Source of the DNA: Candidatus Zhuqueibacterota bacterium
GTDB lineage: Bacteria > BS750m-G25
Assembly: GCA_016783505.1 (NCBI GenBank)
Contig: JADHWK010000067.1
Coordinates: 1-12,005, forward strand
Length of the DNA stretch: 12,005 nucleotides
Direction: 5' to 3'
Shown: positions 9,018-12,005 of the stretch, in pieces
Numbering within the stretch: the first letter of the stretch is position 1
Layout: every line of letters begins with the position of its first letter
The notes under the pieces: model-generated
The model's input: only the letters and a program-made list of their open reading frames with translations
What the model was told of the DNA's origin: nothing
The model's database searches: none
Program-made: the position numbers and the translations under genes

Positions 9018-9046
9018 TTGACTTTTATTATAATATTTCTTATATT
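9018..9046 (+). promoter_or_regulatory. Plus-strand promoter P2 of the small peptide gene
   Basis: TTGACT (9018-9023), 17 bases, then TATATT (9041-9046). The predicted start is about 9053, giving a 35-base leader with a strong ribosome site (AAAGGAGGG). The -10 region and following bases (TATATTACGAC) nearly repeat those of P1 (TATATTAACGAC). Confidence 0.7.
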
Positions 9047-9087
9047 ACGACTAAGACCCGAACAGAAAACCCTGAAAGGAGGGTATT

Positions 9088-9285
9088 ATGGAAAGGATAA
9101 AAACGGGCTTAGCCGTAATCCTGTCGTGTGTAGTGCTGGTCGTTGGTTTTTACTTCGTGGACAGCCCCGGTGCCATTAAGAATATTGTTGATAAATACGA
9201 CCAGACAACCCAGCAAATTGATGGAAACGATTATGCTTCATTGCAAGTTGAATATCCACTGCCCCCACGACCACCTCCAAAATAA
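9088..9285 (+). CDS. Small membrane-anchored protein with proline-rich tail (65 aa)
   Basis: ATG 9088 is preceded by AAAGGAGGG five bases away and by promoter P2. Residues 1-5 (MERIK) are charged, residues 6-24 form one hydrophobic helix (TGLAVILSCVVLVVGFYFV), and about 40 polar residues follow (KNIVDKYDQTTQQIDG), ending in a proline-rich tail YPLPPRPPPK. It reads as a signal anchor with a short outside domain, or as a secreted peptide after cleavage. Cys14 sits mid-helix (ILSC) and is not a good lipobox. Strong promoter and ribosome site suggest high expression. An insertion sequence begins eight bases past the stop; before that event the membrane protein gene at 10716 would have started about 51 bases downstream. 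No family recognised; a signal peptide, a subunit, or a structural small protein are all possible. Confidence 0.65.
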   Translation: MERIKTGLAVILSCVVLVVGFYFVDSPGAIKNIVDKYDQTTQQIDGNDYASLQVEYPLPPRPPPK

Positions 9286-9287
9286 GT

Positions 9288-9306
9288 TGTTTACTAAACT
9301 ATTGTA
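9288..9306 (+). repeat. Left end of the insertion sequence: target duplication and inverted repeat
   Basis: TGTTT (9288-9292) is the left copy of the target duplication. ACTAAACTATTGTA (9293-9306) is the left terminal inverted repeat. Because repeat and target share bases, the duplication can also be read as 7 (TTGTTTA) or 9 (GTTGTTTAC) bases with a correspondingly shorter repeat. Confidence 0.85.
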
Positions 9307-10666
9307 AAAATCGGTTTTTGGGGTTATATTAAGCTATTTGGAATCGTTGTCCGATTTTGGATCTTGGTGCAAAGACGATAGTCAAAATCTCATTGGCACT
9401 TCTTTTCAGACTATTTTGTTTGAGAACCCAGAGGGTAAAGTCTCGTATAATCTCGCTGGCAGCCCACCGGCATTTTTCACCAATGGTTCTAACATTGGCA
9501 TTAACCCATATACGGAGACTCCGATCCATAGAACTTAGTGTAAGAAGTGTATAGGATAAGAAGACCAGATACCAATGACGCTTGATACCCACAAGGTCTC
9601 TCATCTCATAATCTTCGAGGGCTAAGTTTTGTTTGGAATTACGGTAAAAGGTCTCAATAGGCCAGCGGCCTTGGTAAACCTTGAGAATGCGCCGGGCTTC
9701 CCATCTGAGATTATTAGTCACCAGATATTTAGGGGTATCAGACAAATCTTCCTCCTCGTGCACGATGAGAAGACGGACTTTACCCAGCTTGGACATTTTC
9801 ACGGTTTTTGTAAAGCAATAAAAGGTTTTTCCATCTATATCAATCTTTTTAAAATCGGATTTCTTCAGGGTACAGCGAAATGTTTCCAGATTCATCCGCT
9901 GTCCACCAGGAAAGATGATACGATCGCTTTTGGCTGCACCCACCCAGTTTAGTTCTCTGGATTCTATAAACTTAACAAAGTCTTTTGAAAGGAACCAAGC
10001 ATCAAAAACAACTGTTTTAAAACGAAGTCCACTTAAGAGGGCGTGTTCGACCAACTCCTGGGCCAACTCGATTTTTGTCCTGAAGGCTTTATCTTTTTTA
10101 TCCCTTTTCAGATAAAGCCGCAACCCAATGGGAAAACAACCCCGAGGGGTAACATATTGACTGGTGACAATATTATGACCCCACACATAGCGGGCCTCGG
10201 CATGATCATAATACTTGCCCGCTTCCTCGATCTGTTTGCCGAATTTCTCAAGAATGGTATCATCAATGCCCAAGCAGCCTTTTACTGGATTCAGATGCCC
10301 GATACGGCTCTTGATAAGTTCAATCCGGCGACGGTCAACTTTTTCTTCCGGCCATCGAGCTCGGGTCATAAAACGGTCTTTGTTGCTATACTCACGATGA
10401 CCAACAAAAGAATTATTGATCTGTTTTATATTGGCTCGATCACAAACGATCAACCCAGTTAAGTATTCCGCAAAATGGCTTAGCTGTGGTTTTGAAAAGA
10501 GATCCTTAAATTGATCAAGATGATCTTTCACAACTACCGGATAATCTGTGATTCTAAACATCTGTGGGCCTCCATTTACCTAATCAAGAATTAACTAAAT
10601 ATAACCTAAATATCGGTAAATGCCAAGCCCAATATACCACGTTTAGGAAAAATACAATAGTTTAGT
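9293..10666 (-). mobile_element. Complete IS4-superfamily insertion sequence (about 1.37 kb)
   Basis: A single-transposase element. The 14-bp terminal inverted repeats ACTAAACTATTGTA are perfect (9293-9306 and the complement of 10653-10666), and the ends stay partly alike further in (both have TATATT about 30 bases inside). The same 12 bases, AGTTGTTTACTA, overlap both borders (9285-9296 and 10664-10675), which shows a target duplication. Ends, duplication and an intact transposase indicate a recent and possibly still mobile copy. It sits between the stop of the small peptide gene and the membrane protein gene, with its transposase reading against them. Confidence 0.9.
9329..10561 (-). CDS. 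IS4-superfamily (IS701-like) DDE transposase
   Basis: A 410-residue transposase that cuts and joins the element ends. The three acidic residues are present: Asp100 (GIDDTILEKFGK), Asp187 (VVFDAWFLS) and Glu303 in YQGRWPIETFYRNSK. The last segment fits the IS4-superfamily signature Y-2-R-3-E-6-K exactly (Tyr296, Arg299, Glu303, Lys310). The N-terminal part (DRANIKQINNSF, RFMTRARWPEEKVDRRRIEL) resembles IS701-group proteins, but the family within the superfamily is not certain. ATG 10561 follows GGAGG with a 7-base gap. The frame is intact from start to stop with no internal stop or shift. The stop lies 36 bases inside the left end. Confidence 0.93.
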   Translation of the reverse strand: MFRITDYPVVVKDHLDQFKDLFSKPQLSHFAEYLTGLIVCDRANIKQINNSFVGHREYSNKDRFMTRARWPEEKVDRRRIELIKSRIGHLNPVKGCLGIDDTILEKFGKQIEEAGKYYDHAEARYVWGHNIVTSQYVTPRGCFPIGLRLYLKRDKKDKAFRTKIELAQELVEHALLSGLRFKTVVFDAWFLSKDFVKFIESRELNWVGAAKSDRIIFPGGQRMNLETFRCTLKKSDFKKIDIDGKTFYCFTKTVKMSKLGKVRLLIVHEEEDLSDTPKYLVTNNLRWEARRILKVYQGRWPIETFYRNSKQNLALEDYEMRDLVGIKRHWYLVFLSYTLLTLSSMDRSLRIWVNANVRTIGEKCRWAASEIIRDFTLWVLKQNSLKRSANEILTIVFAPRSKIGQRFQIA

Positions 10667-10671
10667 TGTTT
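10653..10671 (+). repeat. Right end of the insertion sequence: inverted repeat and target duplication
   Basis: TACAATAGTTTAGT (10653-10666) is the exact reverse complement of the left terminal repeat. It is followed by TGTTT (10667-10671), the second copy of the target duplication. Confidence 0.85.
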
Positions 10672-10715
10672 ACTAGAATTAATCTTGTAAATATCCTAAT
10701 TAATTTGAATAGGTT

Positions 10716-11828
10716 ATGTTCGGGTCTTCCATGAAAATTAAGCAGAATGTTTATCATAAAATCGGTATGGCTTTTCTTATCTGGTTGGGGATTATTTTCT
10801 TAACCTCTAACTTACCCCATGAACCAATCCCCTGGTCAAGTTACGTGAACTTTTGTCTTTATTTTTTAGCCGCAATCCTTGCGTTTTCTATCTTCAGGGC
10901 GGACATTTATTATAAAAATATTTTCCTGAACTTTTCCATCTACTTCCTGTACATTTCTTTACAATATTTCATCAGTTTTATCGGTTCTGATAATCTTTTT
11001 GGGAATTTTTATATATATCTGTATATATATCAATACCATATCGTCGGTTTATATTTCCTTAAAATTCTGGTGGTACTTTATCCCCTCCTCTTCATCCTTT
11101 TTCCCAACAAGCCACCAAAATTTATTTACTTAATCGCCTTTTCAATCATCACCCCGGTTATCTTTTTAATTTATCACGGTTTTTTTCTGGATAAGAATTT
11201 TCTTTATCAGCTCGGTCTAAACAATTTTTACGCCCCTCTTTTCAGGGAAAATATCTATTCAAACCTGGTTATCCTCTCCATCCTGTTAGGATTTTGGCAG
11301 AATTATGTTCGCAACGACCCGGTATTAGGTGAATACATAAATGTGATTATAGTGATTTTTACTTATGAAGTTCTAATTAGTATTCTGCATCATATCAGCC
11401 TTCTGTATAATACGGAACTTTTTTCGCTGGGTCAACATATCTATACCGGTCTTTTAATCCTGTTATCTCTGGTGCTTTTTCTGAAACTGAGCTACAGCTT
11501 AAGTCCTTTTTGGAGACAATATGAGGAGGTCGTTCAATCGGGGTCAGACTGGATAGGAAGGAGAAGGGGTATCTGGTTTAAACTTATCAAGAGGTTCCGG
11601 CATCTCTTAAATGATCCCATCGTCCTTCTAATTAATATCTTATTTCCCCTGTTTGGATTCTCCACCATTCTATATCTCAACGTCATTCAGAAAAAACTGA
11701 TAAATCCCTGGACTTTTGTATTTGCCCATATGTTTCTGGTGGTTGCCATCACTTACACGGTGATCATGATATACCAGATTTTGGCAAAAAGAAGGGAAAA
11801 GATAGGTTTGTTAATAAAAGGAGCTTAA
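10716..11828 (+). CDS. Multi-pass membrane protein of unknown family (about 10 helices)
   Basis: A 370-residue integral membrane protein. Hydrophobic segments lie near residues 16-30, 43-61, 69-91, 97-129 (probably two), 135-155, 181-195, 206-229, 240-260, 302-323 and 333-355. The segment between the last four helices, about 261-301, is strongly charged and basic (GRRRGIWFKLIKRFRHLL) and probably cytoplasmic, as is the tail KRREK. No kinase, cyclase or transport signature was recognised. The start is uncertain: ATG 10716 has only AGG two bases away, and ATG 10731 (MKIKQ) is the alternative; neither has a strong ribosome site. The gene is AT-rich (about one third GC in the line I counted), unlike the 8.2-kb block to the left. 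Its TAA is one base before the ATG of the AAA+ gene, so the two are probably coupled and may form a membrane-sensor/regulator pair. Its native promoter is probably P1/P2, now separated from it by the IS. Confidence 0.8.
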   Translation: MFGSSMKIKQNVYHKIGMAFLIWLGIIFLTSNLPHEPIPWSSYVNFCLYFLAAILAFSIFRADIYYKNIFLNFSIYFLYISLQYFISFIGSDNLFGNFYIYLYIYQYHIVGLYFLKILVVLYPLLFILFPNKPPKFIYLIAFSIITPVIFLIYHGFFLDKNFLYQLGLNNFYAPLFRENIYSNLVILSILLGFWQNYVRNDPVLGEYINVIIVIFTYEVLISILHHISLLYNTELFSLGQHIYTGLLILLSLVLFLKLSYSLSPFWRQYEEVVQSGSDWIGRRRGIWFKLIKRFRHLLNDPIVLLINILFPLFGFSTILYLNVIQKKLINPWTFVFAHMFLVVAITYTVIMIYQILAKRREKIGLLIKGA

Positions 11829-11829
11829 A

Positions 11830-12005
11830 ATGAAGAGTTCTAACACCCATGAGGAACGCCTTACCACTGAAGACCTGATCTGTAATAGTGACGTCATGAA
11901 AAAGGTCCGGCAGGAAGTCAGGCTGGTTGTAGATGGCGAAGATCCCGTTCTGATAACCGGTGAGGAGGGCAACGGCAAGAGGCTGCTGGCCAGAACCATC
12001 CATAA
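11830..12005 (+). CDS. Sigma-54-type AAA+ protein, N-terminal part (runs off right edge)
   Basis: Starts at ATG 11830 with AAGGAG (11818-11823) six bases upstream, and is still open at the window end (58 complete codons). After a short leader, residues 16-58 (LICNSDVMKKVRQEVRLV, DPVLITGEEGNGKR, LLARTIH) align with the beginning of the sigma-54 interaction domain of NtrC/PspF-type activators, where LIG-S..M..V...V......VLI.GE.G.GKE..A..IH is usual. The Walker A motif is GEEGNGKR (44-51) instead of GESGTGKE, an unusual form. There is no receiver or other sensory domain before the AAA+ domain, so control must come from a C-terminal domain or a partner such as the membrane protein. The GAFTGA loop and DNA-binding domain are outside the window, so sigma-54 dependence is inferred. 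Confidence 0.8.
   Translation, partial: MKSSNTHEERLTTEDLICNSDVMKKVRQEVRLVVDGEDPVLITGEEGNGKRLLARTIH

Follow-up and report, generated by a model that had tools for sequence, protein, structure and literature searches.

The window analysed here is a stretch of 12,005 nt from Candidatus Zhuqueibacterota bacterium (assembly GCA_016783505.1). It comprises one entire contig, JADHWK010000067.1, of a 60%-complete genome, the only one of its phylum in our genome set. The right-hand end of the window carries a small open reading frame (ORF) of 65 amino acids (aa), a gene for a polytopic membrane protein and the beginning of an AAA+ gene, with an insertion sequence (IS) lying between the first two (Table 1). 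A reading made from the letters alone (the sequence-only reading) had taken these for one operon, and its account of the layout was borne out. The 65-residue ORF stands behind a promoter and has its own Shine-Dalgarno sequence, the first gap measures 51 nt to the ATG at 10716 once the IS is taken out (about 51 bases had been given), and the AAA+ gene begins one base after the membrane gene. The start of the membrane gene is probably 10731 instead of 10716, because positions 10717–10728 form a conserved non-coding arm that also precedes the start codon in relatives. The IS contains an intact DDE transposase and a 5-bp target-site duplication (TSD), and its copy number in this assembly is one; we take it to be possibly of the IS701/ISAba11 type. 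The remainder of the AAA+ gene was not found at another contig end.

Table 1. Features of the cassette and of the insertion sequence within it (TIR, terminal inverted repeat; AF2, AlphaFold2)
Feature	Positions	Strand	Basis and remarks
Sigma-70-type promoter TTGACT-N17-TATATT	9018–9046	+	Peptide operon promoter; 10 of 12 consensus bases match
5′ arm AAGACCCGAACA	9053–9064	+	Predicted transcript start; perfect 12-bp complement of 10717–10728
Shine-Dalgarno AGGAGGG for peptide ORF	9077–9083	+	Read from sequence
Putative secreted or anchored peptide precursor, 65 aa, tail EYPLPPRPPPK, one copy	9088–9285	+	ORF; positional counterparts in relatives
TSD TGTTT, left copy	9288–9292	+	
Insertion sequence, 1374 bp, TIR ACTAAACTATTGTA	9293–10666	-	Secondary insertion within operon
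IS transposase, 410 aa, DDE_5 / DDE_Tnp_1	9329–10561	-	Family match
TSD TGTTT, right copy	10667–10671	+	
3′ arm TGTTCGGGTCTT	10717–10728	+	Ends 2 nt ahead of probable membrane-gene start codon
Polytopic membrane protein, 365 aa (370 aa from 10716), probable peptide receptor	10731–11828	+	AF2 model; homologues in three other phyla
AAA+ regulator, first 58 aa	11830–12005	+	Truncated by contig end; aligned with relatives

To place the locus among relatives, we searched for homologues of the membrane protein. The initial search gave one distant match, in a KSB1 genome, where a short secreted ORF, the membrane protein gene and an AAA+ gene follow one another in this order; contig scans for homologues gave the KSB1 locus WJMF01000238.1, apparently that very contig, as sole match. 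A two-row profile then detected membrane-protein homologues at 34 loci, spread over 27 of the 82 genomes available for the KSB1-type phylum (KSB1 phylum below), and a 31-member profile extended the family to two further phyla, here called the second (12 of 39 genomes) and the third (3 of 40 genomes). The adjacency expected by the sequence-only reading was found in genomes without the IS. Among the KSB1-phylum loci that could be tested, an AAA+ gene lies directly downstream of the membrane gene in 31 of 32, and upstream, in 28 of 33, lies a short ORF whose N-terminus is hydrophobic and whose tail is in most cases Pro-rich. The second phylum shows the three genes again in that order, and the membrane-protein profiles of the KSB1 phylum and the second phylum matched with 99.7% probability across 250 columns. 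In the third phylum a soluble PAS-HisKA-HATPase-REC hybrid kinase follows the membrane protein at both loci where this position is visible. The proposal of a single undescribed operon was upheld by the conserved gene order and by a membrane protein that falls in no recognized family. The cassette is real, conserved and undescribed as far as our searches went; no description of it was found among open-licence papers. The window carries the same unit as its relatives, split by the 1374-bp IS and with the AAA+ gene cut by the contig end. As a side observation, most second-phylum loci (L088, L103–L112) have a conserved opposite-strand gene upstream that resembles, by eye, peptide chain release factor 1.

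The small ORF resembles a gene for a peptide precursor, in many relatives a multi-copy one. Positional counterparts of the 65-aa ORF number 28 in the KSB1 phylum and 12 in the second phylum, and many of them are multi-copy. Tandem arrays of 2–8 near-identical Pro-rich units form the ORF tail in 12 loci, for example eight IDPTPRPP units in G216, five LIDPTPRPPK units in G217, four FMDPVPEPKRPT units in G215 and six ALTPVVPPQPGK units in G490. At a third-phylum locus besides the two with a visible kinase, the precursor holds eight IWNPIPPPGLPR copies. Units within one gene differ at synonymous sites (pS 0.53) far more than at nonsynonymous sites (pN 0.10), which indicates purifying selection; the repeat units are therefore translated and conserved in sequence. 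The peptides would be exported, cut from the precursor and released. A quite unlikely alternative sees the small protein as residing in the periplasm as a partner of the membrane protein, where it would sense envelope state or proteases and would not serve as an intercellular signal. Some members, the window's included, appear anchored and not cleaved, and a receiver-less AAA+ protein held by membrane-associated partners recalls the pair of PspF and PspA. In G155 and G490, however, the exported portion consists nearly entirely of identical tandem units and the mature protein would contain little besides, which suggests a store of released peptide and not a folded partner.

The membrane protein could have proved to belong to a well-known unrelated family, an outcome that the sequence-only reading had named as speaking against it. 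The window protein matched no Pfam or NCBIfam family, other members gave scattered weak matches only, and neither a PDB sequence search nor Foldseek (at E ≤ 0.001) returned a match. In the AF2 model (mean predicted local distance difference test score, pLDDT, of 84.6) a single helix comes first, then a bundle of seven, a short helix and finally a further pair of long ones; the ten main helices of the model (8 + 2 long) agree with the ten read earlier from the sequence. By VIA-align, chains of the G-protein-coupled receptor (GPCR) type ranked first and made up most of the list both for the window model (Z 14.2, root-mean-square deviation (rmsd) 3.9, 214 aligned) and for a weaker second-phylum model (pLDDT 68.8; Z 14.4, rmsd 4.2, 206 aligned), values that helical bundles may reach by chance. 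We take this modelled similarity, which is near background for helical bundles, as one of arrangement and not of ancestry. The bacterial 7TMR-DISM module (PF07695) is comparable as a sensory module of seven helices whose signalling outputs can be exchanged, but was rejected as the identity of the family: the window protein did not match it, 1 of 31 members matched at E=0.013, and hhalign gave probabilities of 0.6% and 0.2%.

A receptor is the most likely role of the membrane protein, because it has a regulator as constant neighbour and that regulator is exchanged for a kinase elsewhere. Since the kinase takes the position after the receptor in the third phylum, the signalling output that accompanies the membrane protein is exchangeable. 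The sequence-only reading had it perhaps sensing or exporting the peptide; of these, sensing fits the tandem-copy precursors and the replacement of the AAA+ protein by a hybrid histidine kinase. Alternatively, the small protein could be an antimicrobial or toxin-like peptide, Pro-rich and secreted, to which the membrane protein confers immunity, with the AAA+ protein regulating the locus. Multi-copy short Pro-rich precursors do resemble those of insect Pro-rich antimicrobial peptides, of which apidaecin, with its multi-copy precursor, is one. However, the tails are often low in cationic residues (e.g., IPVPPPPYPEPDAQP), and for a membrane protein that stands beside a regulator in nearly all loci, and beside a histidine kinase in another phylum, sensing fits better than immunity. 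We consider the antimicrobial explanation decidedly unlikely.

The third gene had been read as a sigma-54-type regulator, and this assignment was not sustained. Pfam Sigma54_activat does match the 58 residues encoded in the window (E=2e-7) as well as the relatives (E=5e-16 to 7e-39), and Walker A is intact in the window fragment (GEEGNGK). GAFTGA, the sigma-54 contact loop, was on the other hand present in none of the 40 AAA+ relatives scanned (a set that includes the spurious ORF G198b and one sequence cut before its end). Most relatives have lost the Walker-B glutamate and an arginine finger and show LDN/LDH/LEN and YYLL at these places; G488 and G487 retain LEE at Walker B. The Fis-type helix-turn-helix (HTH) is usually kept, and the 285-aa members of one second-phylum clade stop before it. 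Judged by these motifs, the relatives are former sigma-54 activators that can hardly act as such. By extension from them the window protein probably lacks GAFTGA too, its own loop region lying past the contig end. PspF-type receiver-less activators are similar in having an AAA+ core and a Fis HTH, no receiver and possibly membrane partners that hold them, and differ in the motif that no relative here carries and in the ATPase residues that are often lost here. With the peptide promoter being of the sigma-70 type in addition, it appears extremely improbable that the AAA+ protein is an ordinary sigma-54 activator under the control of the membrane protein.

We next consider two complementary arms that flank the peptide ORF; the sequence-only reading had noted neither these nor the multi-copy precursors. 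In the window, AAGACCCGAACA (9053–9064) pairs perfectly over 12 bp with TGTTCGGGTCTT (10717–10728), and by a hand estimate two such stretches would match over 12 bp about 3 times in 10,000. The 5′ arm begins 6 nt past the −10 box, where the transcript is predicted to start, and the 3′ arm ends 2 nt ahead of the ATG at 10731. Arms flanking the peptide ORF were found at a score of at least 18 in 20 of 29 KSB1-phylum loci, the reversed control having its 95% level at 19 and its 99% level at 22. Of these 20 loci, 18 score at least 22 or have an arm at the usual place, and in 12 the best sigma-70-like promoter ends 3–7 nt before the arm; G215b gains arms after correction of its start. The arm sequences vary by locus yet remain complementary (GACTCGAACAG/CTGTTCGAGTC in G217b, GGGCTGGTC/GACCAGCCC in G239b), i.e., they covary.

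Covariation would also be expected of two DNA operators bound by one looping regulator, perhaps the AAA+ protein, and there is overlap between the 5′ arm and the predicted start of transcription. The arms, however, are always inverted and individually not palindromic, and the outward extension of the pairing is locus-specific, reaching 20 bp in G217b and 19 bp in G228. The non-Watson-Crick arm positions comprise G.U 17 vs. A.C 4 (18 vs. 4 including G215b; p about 0.002–0.004), an excess that is predicted by RNA pairing and not by two DNA sites. Outside the cassette locus the arm core shows no enrichment: the count of GACCCGAACAG in nine genomes is close to that of the reversed control, and the arm as a genome-wide operator was rejected. 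The operator explanation is unlikely in our view, and an RNA stem is preferred. Pairing between the 5′ and 3′ untranslated regions (UTRs) across an ORF is reported to control translation of icaR mRNA in S. aureus (PMC3868564). The cassette is alike in that the pairing sequences flank an ORF, and unlike in that the icaR 3′ UTR acts on the translation of icaR itself whereas here the 5′ end would pair beside the start of the next gene.

Second-phylum loci (L088, L103–L113) have a strong local hairpin between the peptide and receptor genes; it covers or abuts the receptor start, and often a T run comes after it. On the sequence evidence, a structured element between the two genes recurs there with other geometry; this hairpin may serve as a terminator or attenuator besides trapping the ribosome-binding site. 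In G228, G227, G230, and G244 (L057, L061, L060, and L064) the 5′ arm GATCATGTCA is also complementary to the start region of the peptide ORF, TTGACATG, so that two exclusive pairings are possible. Separately, 14 nt at the transcript start in the window, AAGACCCGAACAGA, are complementary to the transfer-messenger RNA (tmRNA) of the same genome (L122, about 1455–1465; G000:C28:6954–6964), perhaps by chance. Targeting of tmRNA by the arm was rejected as a general rule: the match occurs in the window's genome only, and 13 other cassette genomes are without it.

Starting from the gene order, the repeats and the selection on them, the complementary arms and the missing motifs, we regard as probable a peptide-signalling cassette made of a precursor, a polytopic receptor and a cytoplasmic regulator (a hybrid kinase elsewhere), with RNA-gated expression of the receptor. 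The first gene would encode a precursor exported via its N-terminal signal sequence, with one or several short Pro-rich peptide copies at the C-terminus. The polytopic receptor, with its seven-helix bundle, would sense the released peptide and control the AAA+ protein. The latter, cytoplasmic and usually with a Fis-type HTH, would descend from sigma-54 activators, would have lost the sigma-54 contact loop, and may regulate transcription through contact or oligomerisation, not through remodelling of sigma-54 polymerase. The 5′ end of the transcript would pair with the sequence just before the receptor start codon, looping out the peptide ORF. The stem probably limits receptor translation and leaves the peptide in excess; in the reading we propose, the receptor is made at a low level compared with the peptide. 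In this genome the IS inside the arm-to-arm loop probably weakens or disables the unit. More tentatively, and as a possibility somewhat short of likely, the cassette may be a cell-to-cell hormone-like system of uncultured phyla that combines a tandem-copy precursor, a receptor with a GPCR-like bundle, a sigma-54-independent AAA+ protein or hybrid kinase, and 5′-end pairing that sets receptor translation.

Several points weigh against the peptide-signalling reading. A recognizable peptide ORF was not seen in five KSB1-phylum loci. The window precursor is single-copy and has no clear signal-peptidase site, and a processing protease or dedicated exporter was not identified (none was looked for). 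The window AAA+ protein is known from just 58 residues, and the GPCR-like fold similarity of the models is at a level that chance may give a helical bundle. About a third of the KSB1-phylum loci, mainly families f190, f191, and f45/f187, are without clear arms; the cut-off of 18 is below the score of 19 at which the control reaches its 95% level; and G254, one of the 20 arm loci, pairs other sequences. Export and release of the peptide, its binding, the signalling and the gating are steps that we infer.

Among known systems, Rap-Phr of the RRNPPA group includes tandemly duplicated Phr propeptides, with several pheromone copies per secreted precursor (PLoS Biol 2024, PMC11343458). The cassette would be similar in that a putative secreted precursor, multi-copy in many relatives, is encoded with a probable receptor; here the ORFs are precursor-like, the window has one copy and the pheromone role is putative. 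RRNPPA receptors are cytoplasmic and belong to Bacillota, whereas the present system has a polytopic membrane protein with an AAA+ protein or kinase, occurs in other phyla and showed no sequence relation; the TPR domain characteristic of RRNPPA receptors was not detected by Pfam in the membrane or AAA+ proteins. The fungal alpha-factor/Ste2 pair, with a signal peptide, tandem peptide copies and a seven-helix-bundle receptor, is similar to the design proposed here for precursor and receptor. It differs in that there is no sequence homology, the output proteins here are bacterial, and the fold likeness is at the level of the helical bundle only.

Known examples of peptide signalling are mostly from Bacillota. 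Such a cassette, with its unrecognized receptor family in several little-studied phyla, would widen the range and manner of bacterial peptide signalling. The number and sequence of the repeats, with units such as LTPVVPPQPGK and IDPTPRPPK, supply immediate candidates for the mature peptides, and in the paired arms there is a clear case on which RNA control within an operon can be tested.

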